Shown: positions 5,387-59,064 of the stretch, in pieces
Layout of the letters: each line of letters begins with the position of its first letter
How positions within the stretch are numbered: the first letter of the stretch is position 1
Assembly: GCF_003312875.1 (NCBI RefSeq)
Contig: NZ_CP015163.1
Span: 1,302,001-1,366,000, forward strand
Reading direction: 5' to 3'
From: Amycolatopsis albispora
GTDB taxonomy: Bacteria; Actinomycetota; Actinomycetes; Mycobacteriales; Pseudonocardiaceae
Length of the DNA stretch: 64,000 nucleotides
Made by a program: the position numbers and the translations under genes
Notes under the pieces: model-generated
What the model was told of the DNA's origin: nothing
The model's input: the letters and a program-made list of their open reading frames with translations, nothing else
Databases searched by the model: none

Positions 5387-6643
5387 GTGGAGCTGCTGCT
5401 GGGGGTGGCCGGACTGCTCGCGCTGAGCGCGGCCCTGCTGCCGAAGCTGACCAGCAACCGGCCGCTGTCCATGCCGCTGGTGTTGCTGCTGCTCGGCGTG
5501 GCGGTCGGCCTGCTGCCGCTGCCGGCGCCCTACGGTGAGGTCTGGGCGGATCCGGTGCCGCACCTCGGCGCGCTGCAGGTGGTCACCGAGGTCGGGCTGA
5601 TCGTCGCGCTGGTCGGGGCCGGGCTGAACAGCGAGCGCGTGCTCGGCTGGCGGTCGTGGAACTCCACCTGGCGGCTGCTGCTGGTCGCCATGCCGTTGTT
5701 CATCGGCGTGGTTTTCCTGCTGGGACAGTGGTTGCTGGCGCTTCCGGTGGCCGCGGCGCTGGCGCTGGCCGCCTCGCTGGCACCGACCGACCCGGTGCTG
5801 GCGTCCGAGGTGAGCGTGCCCGAACCGCACGCCGGCAACGAACTGGCCTCGGGCAACGAGGTGCGGTTCACGCTGACCACCGAGGCCGGGCTCAACGACG
5901 GCCTGACCATGCCGTTCGTGATGCTGGCCATCCTGCTCGCCGCCGGTGAGCTGCCGGGGCTCGGCGAACTCACCGTCGAGCTGCTGCTGCCGGTCCCGGT
6001 GGGCATCGCCATCGGCGTGGTGCTCGGGCTGCTGCTGGGCAGGCTGATCTTCCGCGCCGGTTCGGACCAGGTGCGGTTGTCGGAGTACTCGGACGGCATG
6101 GTGGTGCTGGCCATGGCGTTCCTGCCGTTCGCCGCCGCGGAACTGGTGCAGGGCAACGGGTTCCTCGCGGTGTTTGCGGCCGCGGTGACGTTGCGGGCGC
6201 GTGAGCGGTCGCACGGCTACCACGCGGTGCTGCACGAGTTCGGCGACCAGCTGGAACGGTTGTTCGTCGCGGTCGCGCTGCTCGGCTTGGGCGTGGCCAT
6301 CGGCGACGGGCTGTTGTCCGGCCTGCGCCCGCTCGAGTTCGTGCTCGCCGCGGTGGCCGTTTTTGTGGTGCGCCCGGTCACCGGCCTGCTTTCGCTGCTC
6401 GGCGCGCCACCGGGCAGGCGTGGCGCGGTGGCCATCTCGTTCTTCGGGGTGCGCGGCATCGGCACGCTGTTCTACCTGGTCTACGCGCTCGCGCACGGGG
6501 ACTTCCCGGTGCCGGACGTGCTGTGGCGGGTCGCCGCGCTGGCGGTGGCGCTGTCGGTGCTGGTGCACGGGATCACCGCGGAACCGGCGATGCGGCGGCT
6601 CGAACGCCTCGGCGCGCAGGGCAGGCGGGGCAAGCTCGCTTGA
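5387..6643 (+). CDS. Cation:proton antiporter (CPA1/NhaP-like)
   Basis: A 418-residue membrane protein with about 11-12 hydrophobic helices. It carries the TDPV motif (residues 134-137) and a conserved NDG motif with Asp171, the pair of features expected in the ion-binding core of CPA1 Na+(K+)/H+ exchangers. There is no large cytoplasmic C-terminal tail. The start is a GTG 4 bases after the Rieske gene, so the genes are likely translationally linked. Ion homeostasis during stress would fit the neighbourhood, but the transported ion cannot be told from sequence. Confidence 0.85.
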   Translation: MELLLGVAGLLALSAALLPKLTSNRPLSMPLVLLLLGVAVGLLPLPAPYGEVWADPVPHLGALQVVTEVGLIVALVGAGLNSERVLGWRSWNSTWRLLLVAMPLFIGVVFLLGQWLLALPVAAALALAASLAPTDPVLASEVSVPEPHAGNELASGNEVRFTLTTEAGLNDGLTMPFVMLAILLAAGELPGLGELTVELLLPVPVGIAIGVVLGLLLGRLIFRAGSDQVRLSEYSDGMVVLAMAFLPFAAAELVQGNGFLAVFAAAVTLRARERSHGYHAVLHEFGDQLERLFVAVALLGLGVAIGDGLLSGLRPLEFVLAAVAVFVVRPVTGLLSLLGAPPGRRGAVAISFFGVRGIGTLFYLVYALAHGDFPVPDVLWRVAALAVALSVLVHGITAEPAMRRLERLGAQGRRGKLA

Positions 6644-6675
6644 CACTCGCGGACGGGCGTCACGAGGATGACGCC

Positions 6676-7388
6676 GTGCGCACCGCGATCGTCACCGGAA
6701 GTTCCCGCGGCATCGGCCGCGCCATCGCCGAACGGCTCGCCGCGGACGGCGCGCGGGTGGTGGTCAACTACCGCCGGGACGGCGAAGCCGCGGCCAAGGT
6801 GGTCAGGGCGATCGAAGAACGCGGTGGTGAAGCGATCGCGGTGCGGGCCGACGCCGGAGAGCTGGCCCAGCTGCGGCGCCTGTTCGACGCCGCCGGTGAG
6901 GTCGACGTGGTGGTCAGCAACGTCGGTGTCGCGCGGTTCGGCCCGCTCGCCGAAGTCACCGACGAGCAGTACGACTTCCTCTTCGACACCAACACGCGGT
7001 CCACTTTCTACGCCCTGCGGGAGGCCGCGCGCCGGGTGCGCGACCACGGGCGGATCGTGGTGGTGTCCAGTGCCGTCGTGGTGACCAACCGCCCGGGGAC
7101 CGCGCTCTACGCGGCCACCAAGGCGGCGGGGACCAGCTGGTGAAGGTCGCGGCGAAGGAACTGGGCCCGCGCGGGATCACGGTGAACAGCGTGCTGCCGG
7201 GCGCGGTCAACACCGACGCGCTCGCCGCCGACGGGCCGCCCGGCGTGGTGGAGCGGACCATCGCGCAGGTGCCGCTGGGCCGCATCGCCGAACCCTCGGA
7301 CATCGCGGACGTGGTCGGCTTCCTGGCCTCCCACGAAGGCCGGTGGATCACCGGGCAGACCATCCACGCGGGCGGCGGCCAGTTCTAG
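6676..7388 (+). pseudogene. SDR family oxidoreductase broken by a one-base deletion
   Basis: A short-chain dehydrogenase of about 237 codons if read through. The 5' part (GTG at 6676) has VTGSSRGIGR and the active-site YAATK, then runs into a TGA at 7141-7143. Homology continues at once in the next frame (VKVAAKELGPRGITVN through HAGGGQF, ending 7388). Adding one base near 7127, where the sequence reads gcggcggggaccag, restores a typical AAxDQLVKVAAKELG stretch. This is either a genuine recent pseudogene or a sequencing indel in a G-rich run. It lies 32 bases after the antiporter gene, on the same strand. Confidence 0.8.
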
Positions 7389-40894: not shown

Positions 40895-43840
40895 TCACGC
40901 GGTGCCGAACAACTGCACGTGGGTCGAGAACGCGGTGGCGATCTCGGCTTGTGCCCAGAACCGGTGGTAGGTCAGCGTGGGTGCGGGCCCACCGTCCAAA
41001 TAGGCCTGGACCTTCGGCCACTGCGGGTCCTTGGTGTAGAAGGACCGGATGGACAGGAAGTCGGCCCCGGCGGCGATCTGGTCGCCGTTGGGCATCGTCC
41101 CGGTCCAGCCCGGCGGCACGTAGACGCCCTCGCCGCTGCTGGAGTTGTACTCGTCGTCGAACCGGTTGTAGTCGGTCCTGGTCTCCGGCACGGCGATGCC
41201 GATCTCGTCGGTGTGCGCCAGCATCGCGTCGAGCAGGCCCTCGCCCACGGTCCTGGCCTCGGCGTTGCCGGACTTGGCCGCGTAGTTCAGCAGGATCTTC
41301 GCGTACGCGGCGGCCACGCCGACGTCCTGGCTGTGGTTGAGCACGGTGACGTGCAGCCCGGAGTTCGAGCCGGGTGCCGACGGGTTCCAGGTGTCGGGCG
41401 TGCCGGTCCACTGCAGGTCGGACGGGATGGCGAACTGGCCGCCGGTGCCGATGGTGGTGTTGGCGATGGCCCACGGCACCCACTTGTCCAGGATCTTCTT
41501 GGCACGCGCGTCGCCGGTCTGCTGGTACAGCGCGGCCACCCGCTCCAGGCCCCATGCCTGGAAGCCGAACCACCGGTTGCTCGGCGGGTCGTGCCAGACG
41601 GGCTGCCAGTCGTAGTACATGCCGTAGAAGGTCGGCAGGCCGGCCGGCGGGGTGGCGTACTGGCCTTCCCAGCTGTTGGTCGCGCCACCGGCGATACCGC
41701 CTTCGGCCGACTGCAGCCACTGCAGGAACTCCAGCTGCCGGTCCAGGCTCTTGGCCCAGTCCTGCGCGCCGGTGGCCGAGGCGGGCTTGAGCGCCGGGTC
41801 GTTGGCCAGCGCGTGCGCGGCGAGCGGGTTCTGGTAGCCCTGGTGGGCCGCCCCGTCCCCGATGCGCCACGCCCAGCCTGCCGAGGTGTCGGTCGCGCCG
41901 CCCCAGGCGTAGTACCAGGACATCAGGTAGTGCTCGCTGTCCTTGCCGGTGCCCGCCGGGCAGGTGCTCGGCCCGACGCAGTTGCCGATCTTCTTGAAGT
42001 ACTTGTCGAACATGGCGTACCGCAGGTAGTCGCCCATCTTCGACGCCTTCTTCACGGTGTCGGCGATCTGCGCGCCCTTGCCCTGCGCGGTGGCCCACTG
42101 GTTGGCCAGGTGCGCCACCTGCACCGCGCGCGCGTCGGCGTCCGGTGCGTTGGTGTACTTCCACTGCTTGGCGTAGCTGGCGTCCTTGGTGAACAGGTCG
42201 AGGTAGCCGTTCGGGCCGCCGTGCGCGAAGGTGTCGCACGAGGGCTGCGGAATGGTCTCCCACACCGATTCACTGGAGCCGCGCTGGTAGGTGTTCATGT
42301 ACGCCGGGGCGGTGGTGCCGTCGCCGCAGCGGCCGAAGCCGTAGGTGTTGTCCACGTCGATCAGCCAGTGCATGCCGTAGATGTCGTCGGTGCCGTAGGC
42401 GGCCTTCAGCTCGGCCGCGATCGGGTCGGCCCCGACCGGTACCGCGGTGTCCAGCTGCGCCGGGTACTTGTCCATCCGCGGGTGCTCCGGCGCGTACGTC
42501 GCCGGCTTCGCCGGGTTGTACTTGTCGTTGGTGGGCTGGTCGGCCTTCGCCGGGATGATGTACTTCTCCATCGAGGCCCAGGCCGCGTTGAACGGCGCCC
42601 AGTCACCCTGCAGCTGACCGTAGGCCGCCTCCAGCCACAGGTAGTAGCTGAACGCCTCGGAGGTGGTCTGGTGCCCGTGGTCCGGGGCTTCCACCAGCAG
42701 CGTCTCCACCGAGTGGTACGGCACCAGCAGCCCGCCGAAGTTGCGGAAGTAGCCGCTGTCCGGGTCCTTGATCTTGTTGTACTGCTCGAGGAACGCCGCC
42801 TGGTAGTCCGAGGCGTCCGGGTCCAGTTCGGACACTTCGATCGGCGCCGCGGTCAGCCCGGGCGCGGTGACCGAGAAGGTCGCCGTGGCGGGGGCGCCGC
42901 CGTTGGCCGCCGAGCTGATCGTCACCGGCTGGCCGACGTTCCAGTTGGCCGTGGTGAAGGAAAGCGTGGCCGGGCTGGCGGTGAGATCGGTGCTGCCCGC
43001 CGTCCTGGCCACGGACACGGTGACCGGTCCGCTGGGCTGCACCGCCAGCTTGACGTCGACGGTGGTGGTGCCGCCCTGCTTGACGTTGACCTTCGACGGG
43101 GTGGTGACCACGGCGGGTGCGGCGAGCACCTTCACCGCCACCGGGGTGGACATCGAGGTCGCGCCCTTGTTGTCGAAGGCCTTCGCGGTCACCGAGTACT
43201 CCCCGGCGGCCGCGCCCGACCAGGTGAACTGGTACGGCGCGGTGGTGTCGGTGCCGAGCAGCTGCGTCCCGGCGTAGAACTCCACCTTCTGCACCGTGCC
43301 GTCGGTGTCGCTCGCGGTCGCTTCGAGCGGGATCTCGGCCGGTACCGCGTAGGAGGAGTTGGCGGCGGGCTTGGTCAGCTGCACACCGGGTGCCTTGTTG
43401 GCGCCGGTGCACGCCGTGCCGTTGACCGCGAAGTCGGCAGGCACCCGGTTCTGCGCGCCCTTGCTGGCGTTGAAGCCGATCTGCGCGGTGGTCCCGGCGG
43501 CGAGCGTCCGGTTCCAGTTCGCGCCGCGCACGCTCACCGCGGCCCCGGTCTGGGTGTGCGTGCCGTTCCACAGCTGGGTGATCTGCTGGCCGTCGGGAAA
43601 GGTCCAGGTGAGGTTCCAGTCGGCGATCGCGTCGGTGCCCTCGTTGCGCACGTCCACGGTGGCGCCGAAGCCGTTGCCCCACTCACTGCCCACCTTGTAG
43701 GTGACCGTGCAGGCGACTTCGGCGGCGGTGGCGGCGGGGGAGAGCCCCACCGTGGCCGCGGCACCCATCAGGGCGGCCGCGGCCAGTGCCGGGAGCGGGC
43801 GCGCGCGCCTCGGCCTGGCGAATGGTCGTGATCTCAACAT
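40895..43840 (-). CDS. Secreted GH48 reducing-end cellobiohydrolase with N-terminal CBM2
   Basis: A 981-residue exocellulase. The signal peptide ends near ATAAEVA (about 40), a CBM2 spans about 42-148, an Ig-like domain about 155-240, a linker domain about 245-330, and the GH48 catalytic domain about 345-981. The proposed acid/base is Glu395 in HGHQTTSEAF. GH48 enzymes move along cellulose from the reducing end releasing cellobiose and act in synergy with GH9 and GH6 partners. It is 100 bases behind GH9-CBM3c with no CebR box between, so both probably come from the box at 45911. Confidence 0.95.
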   Translation of the reverse strand: MLRSRPFARPRRARPLPALAAAALMGAAATVGLSPAATAAEVACTVTYKVGSEWGNGFGATVDVRNEGTDAIADWNLTWTFPDGQQITQLWNGTHTQTGAAVSVRGANWNRTLAAGTTAQIGFNASKGAQNRVPADFAVNGTACTGANKAPGVQLTKPAANSSYAVPAEIPLEATASDTDGTVQKVEFYAGTQLLGTDTTAPYQFTWSGAAAGEYSVTAKAFDNKGATSMSTPVAVKVLAAPAVVTTPSKVNVKQGGTTTVDVKLAVQPSGPVTVSVARTAGSTDLTASPATLSFTTANWNVGQPVTISSAANGGAPATATFSVTAPGLTAAPIEVSELDPDASDYQAAFLEQYNKIKDPDSGYFRNFGGLLVPYHSVETLLVEAPDHGHQTTSEAFSYYLWLEAAYGQLQGDWAPFNAAWASMEKYIIPAKADQPTNDKYNPAKPATYAPEHPRMDKYPAQLDTAVPVGADPIAAELKAAYGTDDIYGMHWLIDVDNTYGFGRCGDGTTAPAYMNTYQRGSSESVWETIPQPSCDTFAHGGPNGYLDLFTKDASYAKQWKYTNAPDADARAVQVAHLANQWATAQGKGAQIADTVKKASKMGDYLRYAMFDKYFKKIGNCVGPSTCPAGTGKDSEHYLMSWYYAWGGATDTSAGWAWRIGDGAAHQGYQNPLAAHALANDPALKPASATGAQDWAKSLDRQLEFLQWLQSAEGGIAGGATNSWEGQYATPPAGLPTFYGMYYDWQPVWHDPPSNRWFGFQAWGLERVAALYQQTGDARAKKILDKWVPWAIANTTIGTGGQFAIPSDLQWTGTPDTWNPSAPGSNSGLHVTVLNHSQDVGVAAAYAKILLNYAAKSGNAEARTVGEGLLDAMLAHTDEIGIAVPETRTDYNRFDDEYNSSSGEGVYVPPGWTGTMPNGDQIAAGADFLSIRSFYTKDPQWPKVQAYLDGGPAPTLTYHRFWAQAEIATAFSTHVQLFGTA

Positions 43841-43940: not shown

Positions 43941-46014
<2,074 letters not shown>

Positions 46015-46032: not shown

Positions 46033-46046
46033 TGGAAGCGCTCCCA
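46033..46046. promoter_or_regulatory. CebR/CelR box for the lipoprotein gene
   Basis: TGGAAGCGCTCCCA, one mismatch from the perfect palindrome, 20 bases before the ATG at 46067. It is separate from the GH9 box 109 bp away, so this gene has its own operator. Confidence 0.8.
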
Positions 46047-46066
46047 AAACCAGTCTTGGAGGCCGC

Positions 46067-46615
46067 ATGTACCGGGTCGGTGCCGCCGTGCTCGTCGCGC
46101 TGGGTGTGCTCACCGGGTGTACCGCGGACGGTGAACAGCAGCCGCGTGCCGAACGCGGTTCGGCCGCGCTGACCGAGCGGCTGGACACGATGGACCAGGT
46201 GATCGGCTGGGTCGAGGAGAAAGCCGGTGAATGCGAGCGCGTGGTCCGGGAAAAGCCCGCGGATCTGCGTGCCTTCGTCGGTTCCGATATCGCCGCGCTC
46301 TACGAGCCCTATGTCACCGAATGGGCCACGTGCGCGGTCTCGGCCGAATACCCGAAGGTCGGCCTGCTGTTGTTCGGCGGTGATCGGCAAATCGAGTTCC
46401 AGCGGTCCTGGCGGCAGGCGATGACCGAAGGGAAGATCGGGGACGGGCCCACCTTCGCCTTCGGCAACGGATTCGCGGTTTCGGCCGGTTTCCTCGGCGT
46501 CAGCGCGCTGGACCTGTACTACTTCCGTTGCGACTACCACGACGAGCGGGTGCCGCGGGTGCCCGCCGACGTGGACGGCTGCGTCTACGCCGACCCCGAG
46601 CACGGGCATCACTGA
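46067..46615 (+). CDS. CebR-regulated lipoprotein of unknown function
   Basis: A 182-residue lipoprotein. The signal sequence ends in lipobox LTGC (Cys18). The mature part has four cysteines (56, 89, 155, 172), enough for two disulfides. Helices rich in Glu/Arg (LTERLDTMDQVIGWVEEKAG) follow the anchor, and the C-terminus is YADPEHGHH. I recognise no domain or catalytic motif. ATG at 46067 follows TTGGAGG. A CebR box and promoter directly before it place it in the cellulose regulon, so a role in cellulose sensing, enzyme retention or cello-oligosaccharide handling at the cell surface is plausible but unproven. Confidence 0.8.
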   Translation: MYRVGAAVLVALGVLTGCTADGEQQPRAERGSAALTERLDTMDQVIGWVEEKAGECERVVREKPADLRAFVGSDIAALYEPYVTEWATCAVSAEYPKVGLLLFGGDRQIEFQRSWRQAMTEGKIGDGPTFAFGNGFAVSAGFLGVSALDLYYFRCDYHDERVPRVPADVDGCVYADPEHGHH

Positions 46616-46653: not shown

Positions 46654-47700
46654 TTACGGGCTCTGGCAGGTGATCGCGGGCACCGCCGGAGCACTGCCCG
46701 GCGAGTTCACCGAAAGCCCGAACTTCGTGGTGCCGCCCGCCGCCAGCGCGGCGTTCCAGTCCACGTTGCGCACGGTCACCTGATCACCCGACTGCGTCTG
46801 GGTGCCGTTCCAGACGCTGTTGATCGTCTGCCCGGTGGGCAGCGTCCAGTTCGCCCGCCAGCCCGAAAGCGGGGCGGTACCGGCGTTCTTCACGGTGACC
46901 TCGGCCTGGTGCCCGCCGTTCCAGGTGCTGGTGACCGCGTACTCGGCCGTGCAGCTGCCGGCCGGGGTGCCCGGGCCGCCGGGGCTGCCGGTGGCGTCCT
47001 TGACCCCGGTGACCTCGCCGTTCCCGCCGTCGAAGGTGACGTCGGAGCAGCCGTAGAAGGTCTCCGCGCTGTCCGAGCGCTTCCACACCGAGTAGATGAT
47101 GTGGCGCCCGCTCTTGCCCGACGGCAGCGCGCCGGACCACTTGTACTGCCCTTCCACGCTGCCCACCGCGCCGGTGACCTGCGGGTGGTCCACGGTCAGG
47201 AACGGCTGCTCCTCCAGGTCGTCCCAGCGCAGCGGGGCGTCGGGATTCCAGCCGTTCTTGGTCACGTAGAGGTAGAACCAGCCGGGATGCGCGGCCCAGG
47301 CGTTGTAGGAGAAGTTGAAGTTGGCGCCCGAGGTCAGATGCGTCAGCGGCCAGTTCCCGGTCCCGTTGAAGCCGGCGAAGCTCGGGTTGCCGCCCGAGCA
47401 CAGCTGGCCGTCCGGGATGAAGCCGCGGGTGCGGCCGGCCCCGTCCGACCGGAGCACGGAGAACCAGTTGTAGAGCGAATTCGCGCCGCTCTGGTTCACC
47501 GCCGCCGAACACGCGGGATTGACCGGCACGATATTGCCCTGCGGGGTGAGCCCGTCCTGCCAGCAGAGGAAGGTCCGGCTGCCCGCTTTCATCAGCGCGC
47601 CGTGTGCCGACGCGCCGGGCGCGCCGAGCACCATGGTGAGCAATCCCGCCACCAGAGCGGTGGCGGCGGCGAGTGCGGTACCCGCCCTTTTCTTTGTCAC
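46654..47700 (-). CDS. Secreted AA10 lytic polysaccharide monooxygenase with CBM2
   Basis: A 348-residue LPMO. The signal peptide ends at ASA, exposing His33 (HGALMKAGSRTFLCW) as the new N-terminus; with His138 (AAHPGWF) it forms the copper histidine brace. The AA10 domain (33-235) most resembles CelS2/ScLPMO10C, which oxidises cellulose at C1. A Gly/Pro linker and a C-terminal CBM2 (about 250-348) follow. The GTG at 47700 has an AAAGGAAG ribosome site. A CebR box lies 60 bases upstream. Confidence 0.95.
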   Translation of the reverse strand: MTKKRAGTALAAATALVAGLLTMVLGAPGASAHGALMKAGSRTFLCWQDGLTPQGNIVPVNPACSAAVNQSGANSLYNWFSVLRSDGAGRTRGFIPDGQLCSGGNPSFAGFNGTGNWPLTHLTSGANFNFSYNAWAAHPGWFYLYVTKNGWNPDAPLRWDDLEEQPFLTVDHPQVTGAVGSVEGQYKWSGALPSGKSGRHIIYSVWKRSDSAETFYGCSDVTFDGGNGEVTGVKDATGSPGGPGTPAGSCTAEYAVTSTWNGGHQAEVTVKNAGTAPLSGWRANWTLPTGQTINSVWNGTQTQSGDQVTVRNVDWNAALAAGGTTKFGLSVNSPGSAPAVPAITCQSP

Positions 47701-47760: not shown

Positions 47761-47774
47761 TGGAAGCGCTCCCA
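47761..47774. promoter_or_regulatory. CebR/CelR box for the AA10-CBM2 LPMO
   Basis: TGGAAGCGCTCCCA, one mismatch from the perfect palindrome, 60 bases before the LPMO GTG on the minus strand. Confidence 0.8.
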
Positions 47775-47949: not shown

Positions 47950-47963
47950 TGGGAGCGCTCCTA
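47950..47963. promoter_or_regulatory. CebR/CelR box for the CBM4-GH9-CBM2 gene
   Basis: TGGGAGCGCTCCTA, one mismatch from the perfect palindrome, 85 bases before the ATG at 48049. Confidence 0.8.
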
Positions 47964-56655: not shown

Positions 56656-56669
56656 TGGGAGCGCTCCCA
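56656..56669. promoter_or_regulatory. CebR/CelR box for cebEFG-bglC-msiK
   Basis: TGGGAGCGCTCCCA, a perfect palindrome, 45 bases before the cebE GTG on the minus strand. Confidence 0.9.
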
Positions 56670-56745: not shown

Positions 56746-57777
56746 TCAGGCGGATTCGCGCGTGACCAGCTCGGTGGGCAGGATGACCGGGCTGAGCGTG
56801 GTTTCCGGGTCGCGGATCTGGGCGATCAGCAGTTTGGCCAGCTCACGGCCCATCTGGCCGACCGGCTGGGCGACGCTGGTGAGCATCGGGTCGACGTTGC
56901 GCGCGATGTCGGAGTCGTCGAAGCCGATCACCGCCACGTCGTCGGGCACGCGCCTGCCCGCGGTGCGCAGCGCTCGCAGCGCGCCCGCCGCCATCAGGTC
57001 GCTCGCCGCGAACACCGCGTCGAGCTGCGGGTCCTTTTCCAACAGCTCCCGCATCGCGGCTTCACCACTGGCCTGGCCGAAGTCGCCCTGGGCGACCAGG
57101 CGCGCGCCACCGCGGCGGCCACGCAGCGCCGAGCGGTACCCGCTGAGGCGGTCGATGCCCGCGGCCATGTCCTGCGGGCCGGTGATGGTGGCGATGCGCC
57201 GCCTGCCCTGCTGGTAGAGGTACTCGGTGGCGGCCTTGGCGCCGGAGAGGTTGTCCGCGTCGACGTAGGGCACGGCGCCGATGTCCGACATCGGCCTGCC
57301 GTTGAGCGCGACCGGCGCGCCGGCGGCGACCAGGTTGCGGGGGAGCGGGTCGTCTCCGTGCAGCGAGATCAGCGCGACCCCGTCGACGTGTCCGTTGCGC
57401 ACCAATTGTTCCACCCGATCGTGTTGCCGGGCGGTGCTCGCCATCATCAGCTGCAGCTGCAGCGGGGTGGTGGACAGCTCCTGGCTCAGCCCGCGCACCA
57501 GGCTGCCGAAGAACGGCTCGCCGAACACGCGTGCCTCGGATTCGGAGACCACCAGCAGCACCGTGTCGCTGCGGCGGGTGACCAGGCTGCGCGCGGCCTG
57601 GTTGGGCACGTAACCCAGCTTCTGGATGGCTTCCTGGACGGCCTTGAGCGCGCGCGGGCTCACCTCGAGCGAGCCGTTCACCACCCGGGAGACGGTGCCA
57701 CGGGACACGCCGGCCTCCACCGCCACCTGTTCCAGGGTGGGGCGCCCGCTCGTCCGGGCCCGACCAGTACTCGTCAT
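56746..57777 (-). CDS. cebR: LacI family repressor CebR/CelR
   Basis: A 343-residue LacI regulator. The helix-turn-helix reads RPTLEQVAVEAGVSRGTVSRVVNGS, with the SRGTVSRVVNG recognition helix typical of CebR. The sugar domain has RRIATITGPQDMAAGIDR. CebR blocks cellulase and ceb genes until cellobiose releases it. The ATG at 57777 is chosen by family length. The gene is adjacent to cebE and divergent from the first GH6 gene. A degenerate box lies before it. Confidence 0.94.
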   Translation of the reverse strand: MTSTGRARTSGRPTLEQVAVEAGVSRGTVSRVVNGSLEVSPRALKAVQEAIQKLGYVPNQAARSLVTRRSDTVLLVVSESEARVFGEPFFGSLVRGLSQELSTTPLQLQLMMASTARQHDRVEQLVRNGHVDGVALISLHGDDPLPRNLVAAGAPVALNGRPMSDIGAVPYVDADNLSGAKAATEYLYQQGRRRIATITGPQDMAAGIDRLSGYRSALRGRRGGARLVAQGDFGQASGEAAMRELLEKDPQLDAVFAASDLMAAGALRALRTAGRRVPDDVAVIGFDDSDIARNVDPMLTSVAQPVGQMGRELAKLLIAQIRDPETTLSPVILPTELVTRESA

Positions 57778-57885: not shown

Positions 57886-58884
<999 letters not shown>

Positions 58885-59050: not shown

Positions 59051-59064
59051 TGGGAGCGTTCCCA
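59051..59064. promoter_or_regulatory. CebR/CelR box for the second GH6 and LPMO genes
   Basis: TGGGAGCGTTCCCA, one mismatch from the perfect palindrome, 34 bases before the ATG at 59099. Confidence 0.82.

Follow-up and report, generated by a model that had tools for sequence, protein, structure and literature searches.

A lipoprotein gene among cellulase genes

The window, a stretch of 64,000 nucleotides from Amycolatopsis albispora, contains a small gene coding for a putative lipoprotein, which is surrounded by genes for cellulose degradation (Table 1). The cellulases GH9-CBM3 and GH48-CBM2 are encoded on the other strand, in agreement with the divergence claimed in an earlier note on this DNA, and a GH5-CBM2 enzyme is also encoded on the strand opposite to the lipoprotein gene. 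On the 3′ side of the latter, and convergent with it, lies the gene of an AA10 LPMO with a CBM2. Domain searches also detect a second GH9 in the window and, farther out, a LacI-family regulator, with sugar ABC transporter parts and GH1 adjoining it, and GH6.

Table 1. Features of the lipoprotein locus and of its surroundings, in positions of the window
Feature	Position	Strand	Basis
GH48-CBM2 cellobiohydrolase	40895..43840	-	domain search
Divergent GH9-CBM3 cellulase	43941..45872	-	domain search
CebR-type box without mismatch, towards the divergent GH9	45911..45924		consensus match, kept in close loci
Predicted promoter TTGTCC-17-TACGGT	45986..46014	+	kept in four close loci
CebR-type box TGGAAGCGCTCCCA of the lipoprotein gene	46033..46046	+	1 mismatch to consensus
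GGAGG ahead of the lipoprotein ATG	46058..46062		
Lipoprotein gene, from the ATG to the last base of the stop codon, 182 aa	46067..46615	+	sequence; 55-member alignment of the family
Signal peptide and lipobox LTGC (residues 15-18), with the predicted lipid-bearing Cys18 at 46118-46120	46067..46120	+	sequence
Cysteine core, Cys56/Cys89/Cys155/Cys172	46232..46582	+	alignment of 55 members
C-terminal His tail EHGHH, candidate copper ligand	46598..46612	+	sequence, His counts across the family
Partner CelS2-like AA10 LPMO with CBM2 (start placed by eye at about 47700)	46654..47700	-	Pfam LPMO_10, CBM_2
CBM2 of the LPMO, with T, K, A where the MMH copper ligands would stand	46669..46953	-	alignment, domain search
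Further CebR-type boxes, near the LPMO (the first one listed), second GH9, regulator and GH6 genes	47761-47774, 47950-47963, 56656-56669, 57894-57907, 59051-59064		0-1 mismatch to consensus
LacI-family regulator, probably CebR	56746..57726	-	LacI + Peripla_BP_3 domains; name by context

The translated sequence has the features that the earlier note had read in it: a lipobox, four cysteines downstream of Cys18 (Cys56, Cys89, Cys155 and Cys172) and a His-rich C-terminus. The protein has the signal peptide with lipobox and cysteine by which bacterial lipoproteins are recognised, and we infer from the lipobox that it is lipidated. That it contains no known domain is borne out by the searches against Pfam and NCBIfam, neither of which returns any family for the window protein at E ≤ 10.

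The box TGGAAGCGCTCCCA ends 20 nt 5′ of the ATG, where the earlier note had seen it, and it is conserved in close loci; inasmuch as a box in the promoter region defines the CebR regulon, the window gene is a candidate member of it. The boxes were scored against a consensus that we take to be that of CebR. Box matching alone proves little, since the window contains 11 matches with up to three mismatches when 6.8 are expected, and 8 of 100 shuffled sequences also reach 11. We consider the box to be real because it is conserved across close loci, not because of this count: four close loci have retained both boxes and the TTGTCC-17-TACGGT promoter, with two mismatches in the box of one of them (L002/L037). 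The promoter is likewise proposed on the basis of this conserved footprint. A scan for the sigma-70 consensus found no promoter, so that the "recognisable promoter" of the earlier note holds as a conserved element, but not as a match to the consensus.

In the sister group L040-L043, the lipoprotein gene has no box of its own, and a TTGTGA-17-TAGAGC-like promoter is seen by eye close to the ATG; given this proximity, the mRNA of these lipoproteins may be leaderless.

A protein family found in Pseudonocardiaceae

The earlier note would have been contradicted if the gene were not conserved beyond this strain, which is not the case. A search with the single sequence finds the family in 7 of the 80 genomes of the genus, and a profile built from eight members finds it in 72 of the 390 genomes of Pseudonocardiaceae; 71 are counted, spread over 11 of 46 genera, after leaving out G156, whose match (E 0.003, residues 11-58) covers the signal peptide region. 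Among 394 genomes of the class, only the genome itself and one signal-peptide match outside Pseudonocardiaceae (G783, E 0.003, residues 3-49, also left out of the counts) are found, hence no credible member outside this family of bacteria, and among 296 genomes of the phylum the genome itself is the only one; as a rule, 8 to 11 candidate stretches were scored per genome in the profile and single-sequence searches, and remote members may be missed.

In the alignment of 55 members, all sequences have Cys89, Cys155 and Cys172, and 98% have Cys56. The other conserved positions are Trp86, the GxG of FGNGF, Glu85 (89%), His181 (87%) and His182 (91%), the last two being the only histidines that are widely kept. 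The lipobox pattern is present in 64 of 80 members, one of which (L102) is a false match as judged by eye; the remaining members without the pattern belong to one genus (g47) and have a hydrophobic N-terminal stretch. In these g47 proteins, the loop between Cys155 and Cys172, otherwise of 16 residues, is shortened to about 5, and both cysteines are kept. Since the loop can be deleted without loss of the cysteines, structural disulfides are suggested, and the core probably contains two of them, Cys56-Cys89 and Cys155-Cys172. There is no CxxC motif in the main family.

At least two histidines are found within the last six residues in 76 of the 80 members, versus 5 of the 653 other genes predicted in the same loci by a simple in-house script. 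Four members are devoid of this tail: L082 and L083, whose N-terminal linker is rich in histidines, and two remote paralogues, L115 and L116. The latter two (from G179 and G210, respectively) have kept the four cysteines, and L115 has an extra CTTC near its N-terminus.

The checks proposed in the earlier note included structure prediction and a profile search, and they give a confident model for a family that is present in 71 of 390 genomes. With 55 sequences as input, AlphaFold2 predicts an alpha+beta core (mean pLDDT 88.2, pTM 0.81) followed by a loose C-terminal tail (mean of about 51 for the last block); the prediction made from eight close members is poor (pLDDT 48.6). Foldseek finds no significant match to the model in the PDB (best E 1.2, probability 0.15), and the best E in the viral models of BFVD is 0.56. 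What Foldseek returns, choline kinases among others, does not exceed a probability of 0.15 and is noise, and the single weak match obtained by searching PDB sequences with the profile, a phycobilisome-type protein (E 0.07), is not credible. Because no match is found in the PDB or among the viral models, which are the libraries searched, the fold of the model appears to be unsolved and, judged against PDB and BFVD, it is perhaps new.

Scans of the 55 members yield scattered and weak matches, to 12 Pfam families at E ≤ 1 and to NCBIfam at E ≤ 0.1, with no CopC, PCuAC, YcnI or Sco in either scan. The Pfam and NCBIfam matches (DUF6491, SodC, cytochrome c551 and others) concern 1 to 4 of the 55 members each, and none fits the whole. 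A full-text search of a library of papers found none describing this lipoprotein family, which has no credible match in Pfam, NCBIfam or the PDB and is unnamed there.

Linkage to AA10 LPMO genes, and the copper site of their CBM2

We read 81 loci out of 83 profile matches, leaving out G156 and G267; some counts exclude L087, which contains runs of N, and L109, which is at a contig end. In 64 of these 81 loci, that of the window included, the lipoprotein gene is partnered by a gene for an AA10 LPMO. In 47 loci the two genes are co-directional, the lipoprotein gene being directly downstream of the LPMO gene, and in 41 of these the stop of the LPMO gene and the start of the lipoprotein gene overlap (start codons were assigned by a heuristic). 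The other arrangements are convergent, as in the window (9 loci), divergent (4 loci), or behind a GH6 gene and at a distance of about 1.9 kb from the LPMO gene (4 loci). No LPMO is seen in the stretch read in 16 of the 81 loci, some of these stretches being 5 kb long only, and one more locus is cut by a contig end. By genome, an LPMO-linked copy is present in 61 of the 69 that were read, the exceptions being G104, G105, G106, G144, G147, G148, G208 and G225.

Three AA10 lineages are partnered: the CelS2-like type with CBM2, the FnIII + CBM2 type and a short type (G107/G108); the types are about 43-60% alike. G236, G237 and G241 each have two copies of the lipoprotein gene, every copy next to a different LPMO type, and the five arrangement labels require 7 changes on the lipoprotein tree. 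The linkage persists in loci without another cellulase in the vicinity (L054, L064, L065, L067 and L070).

The genomes as a whole point in the same direction, with the reservation that kinship inflates the Fisher values of such co-occurrences: LPMO_10 is found in 262 of 390 genomes, namely in 71/71 gene-bearing genomes versus 191/319 others, and GH48, which is found in 111 of 386 genomes, is present in 70 of the 71 (in G208, either GH48 is absent or the genome is one of four that were not drawn). There are 41 GH48-bearing genomes without the lipoprotein gene. The gene is not a marker of every genome with an LPMO, since 191 of the 262 LPMO genomes are devoid of it, nor is it needed by every CelS2-like LPMO, since 37 such loci are in gene-less genomes. 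The link between the lipoprotein and the LPMO is strong, and it is very likely that the lipoprotein gene serves the LPMO in some way.

The position of CebR-type boxes was surveyed in the 81 loci, allowing at most 2 mismatches. In 11 loci, a box is located no more than 50 nt from the start, versus 181 of 40,000 random 50-nt stretches drawn from the same loci, true boxes included (110 of the 40,000 have a perfect box). In 4 loci the box stands in the divergent region, 100-160 nt upstream; in 27 it is 1.3-2 kb upstream, ahead of the LPMO or GH6 gene of the run, and in 4 it is about 4.2 kb upstream, ahead of a GH48-LPMO-gene-GH6 run. Searching other genomes for the same gene next to CebR boxes, as the earlier note had recommended, therefore identifies 46 of 81 loci with a box ahead of the gene, of its operon, or of its divergent neighbour; the co-induction with cellulases claimed in that note survives as a predicted co-regulation in many genomes. 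No box is seen in the other 35 loci, and for 16 of them (L099-L114, one genus) its place is outside the stretch read. A box of its own near the start is a minority trait (11/81), so the term "cellulose-regulon lipoprotein" is right for the window gene, but the family is better described as LPMO-linked.

The most informative copies as regards the boxes are L053, L082 and L083, which are far from any LPMO and have kept a perfect box 35-43 nt before the start. Neither LPMO nor box was found in the stretch searched around L057-L059, L063, L069, L071, L090, L092-L094 and L096. L057-L059 (g24) adjoin a large gene that is presumably GH74-like. L069, L090, L093 and L094 (g35) and L071, L092 and L096 (g64) correspond to a paralogue whose role may be different; in L069 and L071, it is divergent from the trigger factor and ClpP genes. 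We also observed that one unlinked AA10 gene (L131 in G276, at about 5902-6987) codes for a protein with the His-rich linker HGNHGNHGDHG, a C-terminal LANTG and a membrane segment, features suggestive of an LPMO that is anchored to the cell wall and has a His cluster of its own.

A copper site in some CBM2s, referred to as MMH, was first described in 2025 (PMC12703677). According to this paper, MMH is often present in the CBM2s of strict C1 cellulose-active AA10 LPMOs, it consists of M266, M286 and H288 in ScLPMO10C, and the CBM2s that have it bind Cu(I), protect the LPMO and might deliver copper. Among CelS2-like AA10-CBM2 proteins, we found MMH in 2 of the 17 whose gene adjoins a lipoprotein gene (L039 and L043), versus 52 of the 55 whose gene does not (47/49 + 5/6), which gives a Fisher value of 9e-11, uncorrected for kinship. 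Of these 55, 37 come from gene-less genomes (35 with MMH) and 18 from genomes where the lipoprotein gene is elsewhere, beside another LPMO (17 with MMH). The first 13 unlinked MMH loci were chosen by LPMO score before the motif was known, and later ones by available coordinates. The CBM2s of the window and of L039 share 78% identity in a stretch of 99 residues, yet the window has T, K and A in place of the M, M and H of L039. The unlinked LPMOs without MMH are L132, L138 and L189. L138 (G013) has CMAH...HNH at the place of MMH, which is maybe a His-rich variant of the copper site. The FnIII-type (type II) LPMOs do not bear on the question, because they have no MMH whether the lipoprotein gene adjoins or not.

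On the AA10 tree, 4 changes are required for MMH and 3 for linkage. When MMH and linkage are compared in phylogenetic pairs, 2 pairs are supported (at most 4), and the test does not reach significance, because the independent events are too few. If the changes are read as losses of a site of three residues, linked lineages account for four (L045-L052; L044; L040-L042; the window together with L037 and L038) and unlinked lineages for one or two (L132, perhaps L138), plus L189, which is outside the AA10 tree. The idea that MMH was lost mainly on gene-linked lineages is suggestive only.

A possible copper partner of the LPMO

We propose that the lipoprotein is a membrane-anchored partner that handles copper for the secreted AA10 LPMO, a role to which we would give about an even chance. 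The protein would be made together with the cellulases once cellobiose lifts the repression by CebR, which would bind the boxes. A lipid anchor would hold it on the outer face of the membrane, where the compact four-cysteine core, probably with its two disulfides, would present the flexible His tail and, in some members, a linker rich in His at the N-terminus. The tail may bind copper ions and pass them, on contact, to the histidine brace of the freshly secreted apo-LPMO or, alternatively, it may hold the copper released by damaged LPMO. The lipoprotein would then do in trans the job that the MMH site of CBM2 does in cis in related LPMOs. Of the roles put forward in the earlier note, copper delivery to LPMOs is the best supported, because of the linkage to the LPMO (64/81 loci), the His tail (76/80 members) and the MMH-less CBM2s of the partners, but holding stray copper fits as well as delivery. 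We saw no sign of cellulase attachment, also put forward there, in sequence or fold, nor of oligosaccharide sensing, there being no solute-binding domain. Against a copper role, the linked LPMOs of L039 and L043 keep MMH, and L132, L138 and L189 are without MMH and unlinked; no CopC, PCuAC, Sco or CusF type copper motif is present in the lipoprotein, and there is no copper gene among the neighbours looked at by eye. The same holds for His181 and His182 being the only widely kept histidines, for the pair test without significance, for the FnIII-type LPMOs that have no MMH in either situation, for the 16 loci in which no LPMO was seen and for the 41 GH48 genomes devoid of the gene.

Extracytoplasmic copper helpers are a known kind of function. 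CopC, PCuAC, YcnI and Sco are exported or membrane-anchored and bring copper to cuproenzymes. The lipoprotein resembles them in its predicted location and would do so in function, but it is not a member of these chaperone families, none of these domains being found by the Pfam and NCBIfam scans of the 55 members, and its gene is not in a copper operon but would be controlled with cellulases. UreE and SlyD are metallochaperones with His-rich C-terminal tails; they too have a flexible His tail on a compact core, but they are cytoplasmic, handle nickel and have unrelated folds, so that the likeness is confined to the tail. CebE, the sugar-binding protein of the CebR regulon, is likewise a lipoprotein from a cellulose locus and has a CebR-type box, but the lipoprotein of the window has no solute-binding domain. 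The MMH CBM2, as described for ScLPMO10C in PMC12703677, belongs to the same type of LPMO, and the site that we propose in the lipoprotein likewise contains histidine; unlike the lipoprotein, which is separate, membrane-anchored, of another fold and has a His tail and no Met site, it is built into the LPMO. In the loci that we read, the MMH CBM2 and the lipoprotein gene are nearly exclusive of each other.

The main rival to copper handling is a role in secretion, folding or retention, in which the lipoprotein would meet the LPMO as it leaves the translocon and assist its folding or disulfide formation, or hold it at the surface, the tail being secondary. The membrane anchor, the tight linkage to LPMO genes with overlapping starts, and a fold of its own would fit, but we consider this explanation unlikely: it accounts neither for the His tail nor for the loss of MMH beside the gene, many LPMOs of the same type do without the lipoprotein, and no PrsA or foldase domain appears in the Pfam and NCBIfam scans of the members.

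It may also be that the lipoprotein is a redox partner or guard, which by means of its four cysteines or of a bound metal would supply the LPMO with electrons or clear peroxide from the surface. LPMOs require a reductant, and four cysteines are indeed conserved. Peroxide damage to LPMOs is described in PMC12703677. This hypothesis is nonetheless improbable, considering that the Pfam and NCBIfam scans detect no haem, flavin or cupredoxin domain, that CxxC is absent from the main family and that the deletion of the Cys155-Cys172 loop suggests structural disulfides.

A protein that binds or senses cello-oligosaccharides or cellulose at the cell surface would explain the CebR-type boxes, the co-occurrence with GH48 and the three solo copies next to a GH74-like gene (L057-L059), but there is little chance that this is the function, in view of the 41 GH48 genomes that are devoid of the gene, of the linkage to LPMOs with no other cellulase near, and of the domain and fold searches, which found nothing solute-binding or carbohydrate-binding. 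Last, it is very improbable that the gene is a mere passenger of cellulase clusters, unconnected with the LPMO: such clusters do move and are inherited as blocks, but the arrangements are several, three AA10 lineages are partnered, double copies go with two LPMO types, and solo copies have kept their boxes.

Returning to copper handling, a broader proposal is that this new family, perhaps with a new fold, is a dedicated, membrane-anchored partner of bacterial LPMOs, supplying or guarding their copper in trans, which repeatedly made the copper site of CBM2 dispensable; we put it forward tentatively, as somewhat short of an even chance. To our knowledge, little is known about the copper supply of secreted LPMOs and about how bacteria protect these enzymes against stray copper. 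An LPMO-linked protein that occurs where MMH is missing would make the copper question testable in pairs of close relatives, and adding the lipoprotein might stabilise LPMO mixtures. If the proposal is true, the lipoprotein in trans and the MMH site in cis would be two solutions that replace each other in evolution.
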